This document shows positions 14,346 to 44,900 of a DNA stretch of 64,000 bases, in pieces; within the stretch, counting starts at the first letter, position 1, and each line of letters opens with the position of its first letter. The DNA lies in contig JAVHKY010000010.1 in assembly GCA_035079385.1 (NCBI GenBank), forward strand, positions 5,270,001-5,334,000, given 5' to 3'. This DNA comes from Aspidiotus rigidus. Its lineage: Eukaryota > Arthropoda > Insecta > Hemiptera > Diaspididae. The translations under genes were made by a program, and so were the position numbers. The notes beneath the pieces were generated by a model. It was not told where the DNA came from. It did no database searches and saw only the letters and a program-made list of their open reading frames with translations.

Positions 14346-14728
14346 AGATGGAAGGAGGTAGGTCAGAAACAAATTTGAAAAATCGAAGGGTTTTCGGGTC
14401 GGCCGCTCTGAGAGGGATAGAGAATTGTAGATTGATGGCTTCTAAGTGTTGGATATTTCTGAACATTTGAAAAGATAATGATTGATGTCGCCTTTAGAAG
14501 AATTTTCTGCATGCAGGGGACATAGATGAGATTCGGAAAGATTTAAACATTTTAGGTGAGCGGAGAGTCGATTGTGTCCAGAACGACGACGACTGAGTTG
14601 AACTGTAAGGGAGCGGGGAATAGGCTTATCGTTAAAAATGTGGGAAGTAGAGTTATTTCGTATAGGAATAAAAGAAGGTCTGCGAAGTCCTGTGCATCAA
14701 CATGGTGGATAAAATCAAGGTCGAAATG

Positions 14729-15002
14729 AAAATATACTGAAGAGAGTGAAAATGCAAAAACAGAAATTACTCGCGCGAGTATAAGGAAAATTACAAAAAC
14801 CACAGAAACAATTTCGAAAAACGAAGCGCTTTCGGTTAAGAAACCATCTTTAGCGAGAACAAAAAAGCAAAAAACCGCAGAAACAATTTAACCGAAAGCG
14901 GTTTCGTTTGTCGAAATAAGTTTCTACGGTTTTTGCAATTTTCCTTAGGTAGATTGTGAGTAATTTCTGCTTTTGCATTTTTACTCTCTTTAGTATATTT
15001 TA
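14729..15002. repeat. Palindrome with PLE-type internal hairpin
   Basis: Arms of about 90 bp (AAAATATACT-AGAGAGT-AAATGCAAAA on the left, complement on the right) flank a centre that reads, on the minus strand, GATGGTTTCTTAACCGAAAG. The same hairpin is present in the arms of the Penelope-like element at 31-34 kb. There is no coding content. Confidence 0.7.
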
Positions 15003-15115
15003 ATTCTGAATAGCTCTCGTACCTTAGGCCTAGGGGATCGAATTGATTTCAAAATCAAAGTCGCTTATCTCGTACGTGTCTTCTTTCATATTATTGTATT
15101 GGGAATATCTTAATA

Positions 15116-30474: not shown

Positions 30475-30712
30475 TTTATTTATTTATTTATTTATTTAAT
30501 TTATTTTATTTTATTTTATTTTATTTTATTTTATTTTATTTTATTTATTTAATTTTATTTATTTAATTTATTTTATTTTATTTTATTTTATTTATTTTAT
30601 TTATTTTATTTATTTTATTTATTTTATTTATTTTATTTATTTATTTTATTTATTTTATTTATTATATTTTACTTATTTATTTTATTTTATTTTATTTATT
30701 TATTTTAATTTA
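30475..30712. repeat. (TTTA)n/(TTTTA)n microsatellite
   Basis: Almost pure TTTA and TTTTA units over about 240 bp, next to the 3' end of a minus-strand non-LTR relic. Such tails often arise from the 3' repeat of the retroelement, so it may mark that element's terminus. Confidence 0.95.
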
Positions 30713-31098
30713 CGAGCTGCTGGCAGTCTGCCTTCAGGGCTATGAGCTCGGCGAGATTGCATGATTATATTATGCATGAAGGAAGTTGGCTTGTTGCAAA
30801 AAGTTGAATATGTTGGGGATTGAGGGGAAGTCATCTAATAGTGTTTCTGCATAGTTGTGAGGGATGGATAAGTAATTACGGAGTTGGGTCAAGCTGGGGC
30901 AGCAGAAGATGTGTTGAACGGATAGGGGGTGTTCAGATTTGCGATGAGGGTATGACAGAGGCATAAGATGAGAGATGAGATGGGTGTGAGGAGTCTGGTG
31001 TGGTCGATTCTGAGACGGGTGATGACTATTCCTTCTCTGCGTTTTGACAGTTTTGAAGAGTCCCATGGGGTGGGAATATTTTTAATTCGGGCTAGTTT

Positions 31099-33910
31099 AA
31101 TTGAATCGATTCGTTCCTGCAAGTTACGGCCCGACATATTGAGAACGACAGATACCACAATGAGTAAATGAACGAAAACCGACAAATACTACAAAGAGTA
31201 AATGTACGTACCTAGGGAACTTGCGAAAAGCCGCAGAAATAAAACAAACAGAGTACCGCAAGCACTTTCGGCTAAGAAGCCATCAACGGGCGGAGAATAA
31301 AATGCGACTGACAGAGGAACAGTCGACGACAGAAAACAACGGTGAGGTCATGATTGAACTAACGACTCCTCGCGATGTGAGTCATACTCGTAAATTAGTT
31401 CAACCAATCCCTCGTCCGGAATATACCTGTTAAGTACGGTTACGTTATCGCTGTTCAGGTGGCGAATGATTTCGATATTTTCTAACGCCATTCTTTTTAA
31501 ATACGATCTTTCTCCATGGAGGAGGGTCTCTGACCCCTCTCTGAAACTGTGGCCACAGGAAGTGAGTTGGAAAAATTTACTCAGTCTGTTAATGTTGATT
31601 GTTTTAAGTTTGAGGCTGACCTCAAAGAGGGAAAAAACAAAAAGATTTCCTCCCTTTTGGACGTGAGGGCCCAAGCCCTCGGAGATGCCCATGATGAGGT
31701 TGAGTTGGTCTGGGAATTTCACCCCCGTGTTATAAATAACAGTCAGATGGAATTCAGTAGTGATGAGCTGAATCTGTTAGAGAAGGGTTTGAAGTTCAGT
31801 TTACCCCCTCTCGATAATGCCGATGCCCTAGCTAATGTGGTCGCTGATTTAACCGTGAAGATTGGTCCCGGTATCAATACCCAAAAAACCTGCGCTGATT
31901 TAGTCCGAAACAACCCCCTTCCGCGCATAAATAATACTGCAAAAGAGTTGATCACAGGATTGAGGAGGAGGGTGAGGAAGGAGGAGACGGTGCTTACAAA
32001 GGCCGACAAAGGGAATTCTATCGTTGCGATGGATAAGGCCACTTACCACTTTAAGGTGGAACAGGTCCTAAGCCAGTGCGGGGCCACAGAAAACCCCCTT
32101 TTCAATTTCCCTCACTATGTCAAGGAGGTTCGGAATGCCATTAATAAAAGCTCCGTTATCATTACTAAACCCTCAGTGAAAAAACACTTGCTCGAACCTA
32201 ACCCTGTACCTCCTCTGTTGTACGGGTTGCCTAAAGTCCATAAGGCCAATACTCCCATGCGACCTGTTGTATCCTACGTCTCCTCCCCCGCCTACTCGCT
32301 CGCGAAATACCTGGACCGCTGGTTTAAGTTTCATATCGAATACGAGTCTCCTTACTCCGTCAAAAATTCGGTCTCCTTGGCCAAGAAGCTCAAAGACGAA
32401 ATGCTCCCTCCAGGTACTATTTTATGCTCCTTCGATGTGGTCGGTCTGTTTCCGAACATCCCAAAAGCGGCCACTTTCCAATACTTAGGCGACCTTCTTG
32501 TTAAATTTAATACTCCTCATGAGGAGCTACAGGAGTTCTTCGACCTCCTCACCGTTTGCTGGTCTCCTAATTTTTGTAAATTTAATGATAAATATTTTGA
32601 ATTCCCGGAGGAAGTGGGCATTCCCATTGGATCCCCGTTGGGTTCCCTCGTTTCGGAGGTCTTTATGTCGAGATTCGAGGCTGACCTCTTTTCCTCGGGC
32701 CAGTCTTTCTTAAATCATGTTCACTATTGGCACAGATATGTAGATGACGTGCTATGTGCGTGGACAGGTCCCCAAGAACTCCTTGGTGAGTTTCTTAAGT
32801 ATCTAAATGCTCAGTTCCCCTCCATAAAGTTTACTTTGGAGGTAGGTAATTCTACTATCAACTTCCTGGACCTTACCATCTCCGAAAGAGATGAGGCCCA
32901 TGAGTTCGCAATATACAGAAAAGATACTTCGACCGATATTGTTGTCCACGACGCGTCATTCTGCCCTGTCGCCTACAAAATAGCTGCTTTTAATAGTTTC
33001 ATCCATCGACTCACTAACATCCCTTTGAGTCAAGCAGCCTTCCAGAAAGAATTACGTACTATCAAATACTTGGCTCGGGTAAACGAGGTCAACCTGGACA
33101 TTGACATGATGGTCCGTAGGAAAATCACGCGACAATACCTTGACTCTACTACCTCCCTCCCTCGGGAGGGGAGTCGTGAAGGCAGAAAGCGGTGGATTAA
33201 GCTCCCCTTCCTGGGTCACTTTTCGTCGAAATTGAGTCGCGTCCTTCGGCCTTTTGGGTTCCGGCCGGTTTTCTATAATTGTAACACATTAAAAGGCCTG
33301 TTCGTTAGATTGAAAGACCCAACACCACCTTTACAGAGGAGTGGGATTTATAGTATAAGGTGCAACGACTGTGACGGAATTTACATAGGTGAGACCGGTC
33401 GCCAGCTCCAAATAAGAGTGGCTGAGCACTTAAAGGCCTGGAGAAAGGGCAAATTGGGGGAATCGGCCTTCGTGGACCATTTGATCACCTGTGGCCACAG
33501 TTTCAGAGAGGGGTCAGAGACCCTCCTCCATGGAGAAAGATCGTATTTAAAAAGAATGGCGTTAGAAAATATCGAAATCATTCGCCACCTGAACAGCGAT
33601 AACGTAACCGTACTTAACAGGTATATTCCGGACGAGGGATTGGTTGAACTAATTTACGAGTATGACTCACATCGCGAGGAGTCGTTAGTTCAATCATGAC
33701 CTCACCGTTGTTTTCTGTCGTCGACTGTTCCTCTGTCAGTCGCTTTTTATTCTCCGCCCGTTGATGGCTTCTTAGCCGAAAGTGCTTGCGGTACTCTGTT
33801 TGTTTTATTTCTGCGGCTTTTCGCAAGTTCCCTAGGTACGTACATTTACTCTTTGTAGTATTTGTCGGTTTTCGTTCATTTACTCATTGTGGTATCTGTC
33901 GTTCTCAATT
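31099..33910 (+). mobile_element. Penelope-like element (PLE) with inverted 5' arm
   Basis: It is flanked by GGGCTAGTTT on both sides (31089-31098 and 33911-33920), a 10-bp target duplication confirmed by continuity of the interrupted host element. From the left: a 42-bp tail, an arm (31141-31559) that is the reverse complement of the element's own 3' end (33489-33906) with hardly a difference, then the coding body. This head-inverted arrangement is characteristic of Penelope insertions. The near identity of the arms suggests recent activity. Each arm includes the hairpin GATGGCTTCTTAGCCGAAAG. Confidence 0.93.
31549..33699 (+). CDS. PLE polyprotein: reverse transcriptase and GIY-YIG endonuclease
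   Basis: An open frame of about 716 codons without internal stops. It codes for the Penelope reverse transcriptase (copies element RNA) joined to a GIY-YIG nuclease (nicks the target). RT motifs appear in order: LCSFDVVGLFPNIP (motif A, about residue 294), GIPIGSPLGSLVS (motif B, about 357), HRYVDDVLCAW (motif C, about 396) and INFLDLTIS. The nuclease shows GIYSIRCNDC, GIYIGETGR and AEHLKAW (from about residue 599). The frame enters directly from the inverted arm with only a GTG at 31549, and the N-terminal part seen in the 43-kb copy is missing. The copy is therefore 5'-truncated although the enzyme domains look intact. Confidence 0.93.
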   Translation: MATGSELEKFTQSVNVDCFKFEADLKEGKNKKISSLLDVRAQALGDAHDEVELVWEFHPRVINNSQMEFSSDELNLLEKGLKFSLPPLDNADALANVVADLTVKIGPGINTQKTCADLVRNNPLPRINNTAKELITGLRRRVRKEETVLTKADKGNSIVAMDKATYHFKVEQVLSQCGATENPLFNFPHYVKEVRNAINKSSVIITKPSVKKHLLEPNPVPPLLYGLPKVHKANTPMRPVVSYVSSPAYSLAKYLDRWFKFHIEYESPYSVKNSVSLAKKLKDEMLPPGTILCSFDVVGLFPNIPKAATFQYLGDLLVKFNTPHEELQEFFDLLTVCWSPNFCKFNDKYFEFPEEVGIPIGSPLGSLVSEVFMSRFEADLFSSGQSFLNHVHYWHRYVDDVLCAWTGPQELLGEFLKYLNAQFPSIKFTLEVGNSTINFLDLTISERDEAHEFAIYRKDTSTDIVVHDASFCPVAYKIAAFNSFIHRLTNIPLSQAAFQKELRTIKYLARVNEVNLDIDMMVRRKITRQYLDSTTSLPREGSREGRKRWIKLPFLGHFSSKLSRVLRPFGFRPVFYNCNTLKGLFVRLKDPTPPLQRSGIYSIRCNDCDGIYIGETGRQLQIRVAEHLKAWRKGKLGESAFVDHLITCGHSFREGSETLLHGERSYLKRMALENIEIIRHLNSDNVTVLNRYIPDEGLVELIYEYDSHREESLVQS

Positions 33911-34416
33911 GGGCTAGTTTGTTTGAGTATGATTTAAGATCAGACCAATGAGTGAACCATGTTTGAGTGATGAATTTCTTGATATGTTTGGAGAGATCTG
34001 AATGTGAGATGAAGAGTAATGGGATTGGGATGGTGTGAAAGGTGGCAATTAGAGTGTGTATACGACTTATGAGTGGGTGGGAGGAAGTGTGGTTGGATAT
34101 GGGGTCAAGTGATGATAAAGAGTGGAAATGACCAAAAATGGGTTAAGAGGAAGAGGGGAGGGTAGGTTGGTGAGGATATGTTCTAAACAGCTAAATATTG
34201 CTTGTAGTTCAGTGGTGAAGACGGATGCGGTGTTGCGATGTGAGTGGGAGACTGTGATGTTTTAAAAATAATAGAATTGATCCAAATTTCCAAGATTACG
34301 ACTTTTGAGTATACCTCCCCATTAGAGATATTTTTCTTCTGTACTTTGAAATGATAGAAATCATATTGATTTCAAAACATTCTCGTGTTTTTTTAGTGTT
34401 AACGGACGCGCTGGGT

Positions 34417-37400
34417 ATGATTCCTGGTGAGCTGTCAAACACATGGAGGGAATGGACCGTGCCGGCAAACGGCTACAATGATTGGACTGGAAGTACGAGT
34501 ACTTTACCACGGCAGGTGGACGCTGCCTCGTTGGTAGCAAATAACAGTGTTTTAACGGAAAATACTGGGGCGTGGGCCAATTGCAGTTTCTCGTCTGCAA
34601 TAACGAATTTTACACCGATGACCTCGATGGATTGCAATTACCCGAACACTACACCGATCGAGAATACGCCTGTATTGACGGAAAATCAAAAAGGACGCGG
34701 CGATAAGAAAGAAACCTCGCGGGTAGAAAATAACAGTGTTTTAATGGAAAACACCGGGGCGTGGGCCAATTGCAGTTTCTCGTCTGCAATAACAAATTCT
34801 ACCCGGATGACCTTAATGGATTGCAATTACCCGAATACTACACCGATCGAGAATACGCATGTATTGACGGAAAATCAAGAAGGACGCAAATGTGCAGTCT
34901 GTGAAGAGTCGGCCACCGGCCGACATTATGGTGTAATCGCTTGCGACGGCTGCAAAGGCTTCTTTAGACGATCAATCCGTAGATCTAATGATTACCATTG
35001 CAGGTAAGAAAGTCTCCTTACTTTTTTCTTTCAAAGATTACAAAGCCATAGTAAAAAACAATAAAGAGGAATACTCCGACGCTCGAAGATGGTTGTTTAA
35101 CCGAAAGCGCTCGTCGTATTTTCATTTTTTCTGCGGTTTGCATTTTTTTACTCCACGTCGGAGTATTCCTCTTTATTGTTTAGTATGGATAGCCGTAACT
35201 TAAAGGAACGGATTCGTGCCATAGTAAAAACTTAATGCTCTGTACTACTTTAGATTCAATAGAAGTTGTCGGATCCTGGGTGAAGACCGAAACGTGTGCA
35301 GGTACTGCCGGCTAAGCAAATGTTTACAAGCTGGGATGAAAATATCGGGTAATTAGAAAAAATTATACTTCTTTAGCCCAAACATATTGGTACATATAGT
35401 TTATTTTGGTATAGATCTTGTTCCTAGAATCGATGGCGTAGCTAGGGAAGAGGATAGTAAACGAGAAAGAAAATTGATTCGTATGCGTGTGAAAAAGGAA
35501 GAGTGGGGCTAATACGAGACGAATTATTTTTTTTTAATTCTTAATTTCGATCTTTGACTTTTTGCGGGTGAGTTTTATTAAATTGAGTGAGAACGACGAT
35601 TGATTCATACGATTAATAAAAATCGACAAGAAATTCATATAACTTTTAGTCATACCAAAATCAGCGATTGAACTTAGATTAATACCTAGTTTTAAAACTG
35701 GGATACGAAATTTTGAATTTTGATGAAGCTTTCTTTGGTCGTTTTTGTCTTTCTATAACTTCTATTTTCAAACACTCGTCGAATTTCCGGGAAGTATTGG
35801 AATTAAATAGATCAATAGTAGTAAGTGGATCGGAGAAAGTTTGAAGTGTTAGTGATGGTTTCTGGATTGTTGGGAAGAGCAGAAGGGGCTTGAGAGGAAA
35901 CAAAAAATGAATGTCTGATGTTTATGAGGAGAATGACAGGTGAAAAAATGTGTGACGAATTAATTTTCAGTTTGGTAGTATTCGCATGGGGGAGGAGCAG
36001 AGAGTCCAAGAAGTAGAAAGGAATGGGTTAGGAGTGTGTCTGATTCGTTGTCGAGTTACCACCATTTCTTCACGGCGTGAAAAGCGGATTGAAAAAGATC
36101 AGGAGATCGGGGATTTTTCAGTTGAACGAAGTTCGTTGCACGGTTTAGAGGACCAAAGGATGTGCTATGATGAGTTGATTTCGGTATGGTAGAGAGATTT
36201 CAAATCGTAGGCCGGTGAGGGGGAGTGATCAGTAATTGAGGGGAGAGCAGAGCTTGCTTGGCAGCTAGATCCACTGCGTCGTATTCCGGTAGAACGATAT
36301 GACCAGGGATCCAGAGGAAAGAAGATGTTAAGGGAAGATGAGAATGCGCTGAACGATAGGATTGGAAGAGTTGGTGTTTTGCATGGCTTGGAGAGAAGAT
36401 AGAAAGTCAGAGAGAAGGAAGTTACTGGGTTGAGGGGGAAGAGTGAGATGAGTAAGGCAAGAATAGATGGCAGATAGTTCAGCAGAATATATGTAGGTCG
36501 AGTTTCTCATGCGAAAGAGTGAGACTTCACTATTGATGGAGAAAGCGTAGCCAGTTTTGGAGCCCGATTCGGATCCATCTGTAAAGCCCAGGTTGTGGGA
36601 AGTTATTAGTTTAATGTGACTTATGTAGATTATGTTGGGCGATTGTGGTAAGTTGACCAGGTCGAGACGGATGAGAGGTGAGGAGGATGTCCATGGAGGA
36701 GTGGATGAGAAGAAGGGGGCGAAGTGGCTGAAATTTGAAATTGTGGTCTAGATGAGACTGTAATGAAAGCAGTAGAGAATTTTAGAGGGGATAGAGGAGG
36801 AAGGCAGGGAGATGTGGGAACTGCGCAGTGGACGCGGCTGTAATCAATACTGAATAGGATTGTGGAGTAGGAATGCCAGCCTCAGCGCAGAGGCTAAGTA
36901 CAGGGCTCGTGCGCAAGGCACCAAAGGTTAAACGTAGGACTCCGGATTGTGTTGTATATGGGGATTTTAAGGAGAATTTGTTAGCCCGTCTGTCGATAGG
37001 GGATACATAGTCCAATCGAGATCGGTTTAGAGAGTTGTATAGTTGAAGAAGGAGCTTGCGACCGCAACTAGTGACTGTGTGAGATAGATATGGGAGGGTA
37101 TTTAGTGAGTTTAGACATTTGGCTCTCAGAAGTTGAATGTGGGGAGTCCAGGAGTGTTCGAAATCGAAAGTAAGACCGAGGAATTTAGCGGAGGATTGGA
37201 GACTGAGCAGAAAGTTCTGTAAGAGGAGTTGAGAGGGAGTGGGAAAACGTGAGTGTTTTTACGGTACATAAGTAGAACGATTTGTTTGCTAGAAAATTGA
37301 AACTCACGATCCGAGGCCCAAGAGGAGACCTTATCGAGGGTGAGTTGGAGAAGACGAGTTGCTTTTTTGGGATTTGTAGAAGCAAAGGAGATCCTGAAGA

Positions 37401-43059: not shown

Positions 43060-43200
43060 AGCAAACGTTTCTTTTCTGAAAATGGTTCAGGACTTGGTCC
43101 TGAACAACATGCTAAAAATCCCGCGTCTTCCCCCAGGAGCTTCTTTTCTCATGGGGGTTCGAACACCCCAAAAATTAGTTTTTTGTCCCACCGTTTCCTA
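43060..43200. repeat. Dispersed repeat, second copy at 61.7 kb
   Basis: GAAAATGGTTCAGGA, CTAAAAATCCC and CCCCCAGGAGCTTCTTTT recur in the same order at 61710-61800. A GGGGTTCGAACACCCC block looks like a T-arm but has no tRNA around it. Confidence 0.7.
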
Positions 43201-43319
43201 CTATCAAGGTGCGAATCCCGGGGGGGGGGTGGTCGTAGAGTCGAGACTTTTTCTTGTAGCCCTCTACTAACCACAAGATCAACGTCTTACATGACCTGAT
43301 ACACTCGTGCAAGGTGCTT

Positions 43320-44900
43320 CATAGTTACAAGTTCCTTATGGAATGCGGCCCGTCTCAGGGGGATGTGGGTCAAGCGAAATATTAGGCTATTGAATGTAGC
43401 CATTTTGTGGGCAATTCAGGCACGAAAGACGACCCGTGGATAGCGATATCGGTCGATGTATCTCTTCGGTAAATCCCAAATTCATGGACACCGTCAGTAA
43501 CGGAAATAGTTGAGTCCAAAAAATTCTTAGAAGAGCCACCAACTTCCAGAAGTAAATTTTATCGAAGGGTATAGCCTATTCAAATAAGATCGAAACTCGC
43601 TAAGGAGTTCTGCGGGACCGGTCCACGCACACAAGATGTCGTCAACGTATCTGTGTCAATAGAAAACGTGGCCCAAAACCACCTGGCCCGAAGAGAATAA
43701 GTCAATCTCAAATTTGGACAAGAACACCTCCGATATGAGAGAACCCAAAGGGGATCCGATAGGGATCGCCACCTCTTCAGGAAACTCAAAAAATTTCCCA
43801 TCAAATTTACAGAAGTTAGGGGACCAACGGACCTTCAACAGGTCAAAGAATTTACTTATTTCCTCATGAGAGGCACCAGATTTAAGAAGCAAGTATCCTA
43901 TCCGTTCGAGGGTAATAGCCTTGAGGATGTTGGGAAATAGCCCCACAACATCGAAGGAGCATAAAATCGATCCCAGAGGGGGACATACATCCTTCAATTT
44001 GTCTGCTAGAAAGCCCGACTTCAAAACTGAATCGAGATTTAAACCACTGGTCTAAGTAGGTCGGGGAGGAAACAAATGAGACGACCGGCCGCATTGGTAT
44101 ATTTTTTTATGCACTTTAGGCAACCCGTATATGAGGGGAGGAATTGGGTTAGGTTCCAAAATACCCTTGTTTGTTAGAGGGCTCTTAATGATGACTTTAC
44201 TATCATTAATGAGACTCCTGACCTCTTTGACAAACTTAGGAAAGCTAAATAGGGCATTCTCCTTAGCCCCACATTGAGTAAGCACATTGTAAACTTTGGA
44301 GACATAAGAAGATTTCTCCATGACTACGACGGCATTCCCTTTGTCAGCTTCTGTAATAATTAAACCCTCCTCCTTGACCTTTGATCAGATCACTCCCAGC
44401 ATTACTTATACTGAGGAGGGGAGTGCTGCGAACCATTCCAGCGCATTTTTTCTGGATAACAACTCCAGGGCCGATTTTCACCGTTAAATCAGCCACAACA
44501 TTGGCCAAAGTGTCCCGATTTTTAAGAGGGGGTAGTCCAAATTTCATTCTCTTTTCCAGGAGGGTCAATTCATCACGATTGAAGTTAGTTTTACTATGAT
44601 TTATGATGCGTGGCTGGAACTAATGGATAATAGCATCGTCAGCACGGTCTATTTCACCAACTTTAGAAGGCAAGTTTACAATTTTTCTTAGGTTTTAATT
44701 TTCGCTCAAATTTACGACAATCAGTATTAACAGATTGAATAAATGGATCGAACTCACCAGGATTAAGTGAACCAAAAAGCCGAGAATGAACCAGTAGATT
44801 GAGCCTAGTGGTAACATTCATTTTACTGTACCACCTTTCAACTCCGTTCGGATCCATTTCTTCTCCAACTTTTTAGTTGTGGACTTACAGTCAGAACAAA
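43320..44900 (-). pseudogene. Decayed Penelope-like element copy
   Basis: Minus-strand remains of the same PLE family as at 31-34 kb. From 44857 down: RWYSKMNVTTRLNLLVHSRL and FIQSVNTDCRKFERKL (N-terminal part lost in the intact copy), LANVVADLTVKIGPG, PPLIYGLPKVHKK, SFDVVGLFPNI (motif A), AIPIGSPLGSLIS (motif B), RYVDDILCAWTGP (motif C, about 43640) and YRRDTSTDIAIHG. Several frameshifts, and a stop sits where a Trp precedes HRYVDD. The GIY-YIG part is not recognised, so the copy ends near 43320. Confidence 0.88.

Follow-up and report, generated by a model that had tools for sequence, protein, structure and literature searches.

The window, by which we mean the whole 64,000-nucleotide stretch of the Aspidiotus rigidus genome analysed here, contains a host intron of 250 nt with GT-AG ends (35004–35253, plus strand), and each of the exons beside it encodes half of a nuclear-receptor zinc-finger domain; a Pfam match to zf-C4 identifies the first half, and the second was recognised by eye from its translation. 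Within this intron lies an insertion of 160 bp (35058–35217, plus strand), referred to below as the block, which is bracketed by two plus-strand copies of the 13-bp GCCATAGTAAAAA at 35045–35057 and 35218–35230; these are the only two exact occurrences in the window, and the edge of the block against the left copy is ambiguous by about two A's. The block is made up of two arms. The tailless arm (35056–35081, minus strand) is an inverted copy of positions 2574–2549 of an abundant Penelope-like element (PLE) family, here termed family B, while the tailed arm (35081–35217, plus strand) corresponds to positions 2474–2610 of the same family and is 100% identical to its longer copies. The two arms give rise to a perfect inverted repeat of 26 nt (35056–35081 and 35156–35181) that was absent from the description in the original prediction, and the tailed arm ends in a tail (35185–35217, plus strand) that corresponds to codons 1–11 (MDSRNLKERIR) of the family B ORF. 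We note that the exon preceding the zinc finger contains a 173-nt stretch that is tandemly duplicated at 91% identity (34526–34887).

An empty site is available for the block. Its joined flanks with one copy of the duplication, used as a query, matched contig C59 (locus L068) end to end over 177 nt at 95% identity, and pieces of this duplicated locus are ~87–96% identical to window positions 30589–35770. Both the block and the 2.8-kb PLE that lies at 31 kb in the window are missing from the C59 copy, which runs through both sites with one GCCATAGTAAAAA and one GGGCTAGTTT, and its intron measures 77 nt against 250 nt in the window, a difference of 173 nt that equals the 160 nt of the block plus 13 nt. 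As GCCATAGTAAAAA occurs once and without an insert at C59, the pair in the window is a true target duplication, as had been proposed from the window alone, and as C59 lacks either insertion, both the block and the 31-kb PLE most likely arrived after the two locus copies had separated. The C59 locus has in addition an insertion of its own (L068, 1873–2933), another GIY-YIG-like element, whose inverted ends of 59 nt are 98% identical and whose arm polarity is seemingly opposite to that of family B; for this insertion the window is the empty site.

The 31-kb PLE (family A; 31099–33910, plus strand) contains an open frame of 721 codons from stop to stop with an RVT_1 domain (31534–33699, plus strand), inverted arms of 422 nt (31138–31559 and 33488–33909), the duplication GGGCTAGTTT (31089–31098 and 33911–33920) and, on the minus strand, a tail of 39 nt (31099–31137) that was read by eye as MSGRNLQERIDSI. 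It has the same design as family B and a divergent ORF start. A resemblance between its tail and that of the block had been pointed out in the original prediction and is confirmed, with 17 of 19 bases shared between 35192–35210 and minus-strand positions 31112–31130; the 19-base tail pattern has two matches in the window compared with a mean of 0.12 in shuffled sequence, and none of 100 shuffles reached two. The further proposal, that the block has the core hairpin of the PLE arms, is borne out only weakly by the 31-kb PLE (67.7% over 65 nt), whereas identity to the other, abundant PLE family is 100% over 137 nt. The partner of the block is this second family, family B, and not the 31-kb PLE; family B has no long copy within the window. 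A pattern for family A tailless ends returned no matches, but it does not admit C as the third base preceding the end, which is what the window's own copy has, so this negative result carries little weight. Two other relatives were observed in the window. A third, older foldback at 14728–15007 has diverged inverted arms and the hairpin AAGATGG...CCGAAAGCGC as in the block, to which it is 74% identical over 97 nt; no clear target duplication was seen around it, and it is probably a two-armed insert of another PLE family. On the minus strand at 43188–44757 there is a decayed PLE relative with broken frames, 64% identical to the 31-kb PLE over 1.6 kb.

A search of the genome (441 Mb, 102 contigs) with the block returned at least 86 match rows, a lower bound since 40 of 1399 first-look candidates were scored, and so the block is not single-copy. 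Among the 41 longest rows listed, 36 are 100% identical over block positions 23–159 and five span the whole block at 94–100%, and spacings of 2609, 2610, 2611 and 2614 bp in the match list reveal tandem pseudo-LTR (pLTR) units. The one unit that was read, on contig C11, has an 820-codon open frame beginning MDSRNLKERIRVIENAS, and codons 1–11 of this frame match the block tail ATGGATAGCCGTAACTTAAAGGAACGGATTCGT exactly. This ORF has an RVT_1 domain (E 8e-8, above the Pfam cut-off) and a weak GIY-YIG match (E 0.017, below the cut-off), with several of its relatives carrying PF01541; these database relatives are PLE-type reverse transcriptases, at 59% for a metagenomic protein and ~33% for the closest named one, from an insect. 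Many copies carry the tail, in line with the expectation that it should recur in other PLEs: there are 463 exact 33-mer tails in the genome (227 + 236; reversed control 0), together with 156 tailless ends (control 0) by a pattern that omits ends with a C two bases before AAAC. Family B thus shows several features expected of an endonuclease-type PLE, namely a tail within the range of 30–40 nt that extends into the ORF start, an inverted pLTR arm, a target duplication and tandem units. Mobilisation of the block by Penelope machinery, as put forward in the original prediction, is supported by the tail, the target duplication, the empty site and the identity to a PLE family.

The structure of family B insertions was examined at 67 loci, some of them mutual duplicates, mapped onto a linear reference of 2610 positions that starts after the tail and runs through the ORF to the next pLTR and its tail. 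Wherever two arms are visible they are oriented head to head. The tailed arm ends at 2610, after the tail, and the tailless arm terminates at TGTTTA near 2575, immediately ahead of the ATG, such that the tailless end sits 35 nt upstream of the tailed end; the arm lengths are unrelated in most resolved cases. In many copies an extra GTA is present between the tail and the duplication, and as this is the next codon of the ORF, the start site would lie after codon 11 or 12. For 22 insertions picked because both ends are in view (19 tabulated, to which L044, L054 and the 31-kb PLE were added), the target duplication is 10–14 bp in 21, with a median of 12, and only 7 bp in L020; mismatched pairs of flanks share at most 8 bp, a value reached by five of 462. 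The tailed arms of L044 and L054 are only ~11 and ~15 nt long up to position 2610.

We propose that the element enzyme would make a staggered cut leaving 3' overhangs of ~12 nt, this polarity being suggested by the fact that such overhangs yield a duplication once extension proceeds from both 3' ends. Each target strand may then use its 3' end to prime reverse transcription on element RNA, one strand at a site (RT1) after ORF codon 11–12 and the other at a site (RT2) 35 nt upstream, just before the ATG. Each cDNA would extend towards the 5' end of the RNA to an extent of its own, either stopping early or extending fully, and end joining of the two cDNAs would produce head-to-head arms with a tail on one side only. 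For the block, both cDNAs may have aborted early, after ~26 and ~137 nt, whereas in ordinary long copies one arm would be long and the aborted arm would form the classical inverted pLTR. The cutting, priming and joining steps are inferred from the structure of the insertions.

The explanation already proposed for inverted arms in Adineta PLEs is self-priming, in which one cDNA snaps back and primes on an antisense template (PMC3846280). Head-to-head inverted repeats do exist in family B, as this would require. Self-priming predicts, however, that the two arms meet at one position, and 24 of 27 foldbacks do not: their arm extents differ by more than 20 nt, with a median difference of 245 nt over all 27 (L061 was left out of this comparison as its second end is not in view). 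Three foldbacks meet within 20 nt and only one of these, L062, within 5 nt and at the same position. Extents of the two arms show a weak rank correlation (rho 0.39, p 0.047), and overlaps at 26 junctions are short (median 1 nt), apart from two that reach 13 and 17 nt. Self-priming also leaves unexplained why there is one end at each of two fixed sites, and we regard it as very unlikely.

How often the two ends occur together was assessed from samples chosen in different ways, as loci L001–L030 had been selected by likeness to the block and are biased, whereas two further samples were chosen by one end only; a cluster of inner ends at 2456–2477 among L001–L030 was discarded as query bias. On contigs C1–C8, 21 of 36 tailless ends have an exact outward-facing tail within 7.5 kb, compared with a mean of 0.165 in a shifted control. 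Of the first 30 of the 156 tailless ends, a tailed partner was found for 21 (12 in view and nine farther away with an exact outward tail); the remainder comprise two that seem one-armed, one that is unclear (L040) and six with no exact tail within 7.5 kb. The second sample was picked by the tail, the first 32 listed tails less 11 that were paired with a tailless end or already matched giving 21 tails in 20 stretches. Here 13 stretches are two-armed, seven run out of view and none was shown to be a simple insert; an inverted arm adjoins the direct arm in 12 of the 13, and the other, L077, has a tailed arm of 32 nt against a long arm. One candidate two-tailed locus (C4:3362306/3362374) was rejected, being a long arm that passes through a tandem tail.

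These data also bear on whether the block belongs to an undescribed short, non-autonomous family with source copies of its own that parasitises PLE machinery, much as a SINE does, which was the reading given in the original prediction. There are several short copies with common outer ends, target duplications and similar size, and a pattern for short foldbacks found seven places (reversed control 0) representing six insertions, since the flanks at C19 and C33 are shared. A SINE-like family would be expected to have several copies with target duplications, and these are present; the other hallmark, a shared inner structure with private mutations, was not found among the short copies. The six insertions have the same outer ends and six different inner junctions, one of them (C20) continuing into an ORF, so that the shared boundaries expected of such a family exist on the outside of the copies and fail on the inside. 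Moreover, the pLTR letters of the short insertions are those of longer, ORF-bearing copies, and because the 137-nt direct arm of the block is itself identical to longer copies, nothing points to a distinct short lineage. Spans of the 21 paired copies form a spectrum (86, 111, 141, 181, 195, 202, 670, 1169, 1192 and 1458 bp, the remainder 2260–6313 bp); in three of these the tailless arm covers a complete unit (2608–2612 nt), against only 195 to 451 nt for the arm opposite. Preferred stops can account for the similar size of the short copies. In the end-picked samples 40 arm ends lie at position 2400 or further on, and 19 of these fall in a U-rich stretch of 29 nt at 2508–2536 (window 35115–35143), and the densest 29 nt hold 21 arm ends against 11.5 under a uniform draw, with none of 2000 draws reaching 21, although this zone is rough and was chosen post hoc from end-picked loci only, a sampling that hides tailless arms shorter than ~22 nt. 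The short copies occupy the low end of a broad size distribution, and a separate SINE-like family is highly improbable. The two places that share flanks (C19:8499825 and C33:5712164) are the same short insertion, present through segmental duplication or as an unmerged haplotype.

A further alternative is a one-ended target-primed insertion followed by an independent second insertion, or a rearrangement, at the same site. Two copies look like one-armed, 5'-truncated tailless inserts in which the second arm was not seen, L065 with a clear duplication and L047 with repeat-rich flanks and a doubtful one, and their existence speaks for this alternative. Nevertheless, a single target duplication surrounds both arms in the 22 insertions, and a second strike inside the first is improbable at the frequency observed, which makes a two-step origin extremely unlikely. 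That the block is a retrozyme, a short element with a type I hammerhead ribozyme that moves via circular RNA and accumulates as small circles, is scarcely credible, for although its size and long duplication are near the values for animal retrozymes and a GAUGG...CCGAAA-looking hairpin is common to the block and the 31-kb PLE, an Rfam search of 30900–35400 (E ≤ 5) found no hammerhead and only one weak snoRNA-like match, and the hammerhead core motif CUGANGA...GAAA is absent from both strands of the block. A hammerhead motif has been reported in many PLEs, and to our knowledge its presence in the pLTR is not required of all of them; the family B unit has one strict hammerhead-pattern match per strand, outside the pLTR hairpin.

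We therefore conclude with considerable confidence that the block is a dead-on-arrival copy of the abundant, probably endonuclease-type Penelope-like family B, formed by two-ended target-primed reverse transcription. The Anolis element needs a template that includes the first 172 nt of its ORF (PMC11167929) and the block keeps 33 nt, so it is probably unable to be copied again. We also think it likely that these Penelope elements normally integrate by such two-ended priming, in which the two ends of the break go to two different fixed RNA sites, the tail represents the interval separating them and the inverted pLTR is an aborted second arm. Several observations run counter to the two-ended explanation, namely the one-armed appearance of L047 and L065, the unclear L040, the six of 30 tailless ends without an exact tail, the 7-bp duplication of L020 and the weak correlation of arm extents. 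Another is that in vitro the Anolis PLE showed no difference in start site between strands (PMC11167929), as against a different site for each end here.

The architecture of inverted pLTR, tail and duplication is already known (PMC3846280), and the steps after first-strand synthesis are described as yet to be validated in PMC11167929; a reading of the two insertion ends as the two start sites was not found in print, within an open-access literature that leaves most subscription papers outside. If the two-ended mode is general, it would take the place of self-priming in accounting for Penelope structure. Taken alone, the block is ordinary, and it is the genome around it that is informative, with hundreds of young, near-identical Penelope ends, readable junctions and an empty site, which make Penelope integration, inverted pLTRs and one-sided tails testable at base resolution. 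A 160-bp relic of this kind could also pass for a new SINE-like family in repeat annotation.

The two-ended pattern can be compared with several known systems. In LINE-1 twin priming an inversion likewise arises when both target ends prime on one kind of RNA, but this is occasional and occurs at variable sites, whereas in family B the two-ended pattern is present in most resolved copies and at two fixed sites. Animal retrozymes are short and non-autonomous, with RNAs of ~170–400 nt, and have been proposed to be moved by PLEs (PMC7229834); the block differs in having neither a hammerhead core nor a separate lineage. Adineta vaga Pen2a, as described in PMC3846280, has an RT ORF, tandem pLTRs, an inverted pLTR and a target duplication, the latter of 9 bp compared with ~12 bp in family B, and a 31-bp one-sided tail extending into the ORF start, family B being likewise tailed; unlike Pen2a, the block has no ORF beyond 11 codons. 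The inverted repeats of Pen2a are attributed there to self-priming, whereas the hundreds of young copies here have two fixed ends and independent arm lengths. A further comparison is with Poseidon of Anolis carolinensis, the purified protein of which cleaves and extends both target strands in vitro (PMC11167929). Poseidon has an active hammerhead, whereas a hammerhead core was not detected in the block; the Poseidon start sites lie ~111–118 nt into the ORF and show no strand preference, as opposed to flanking the first 11–12 codons with one used per end in family B. In both elements, however, the layout is the same, with two adjacent internal start sites bounding a tail that lies in the start of the ORF.
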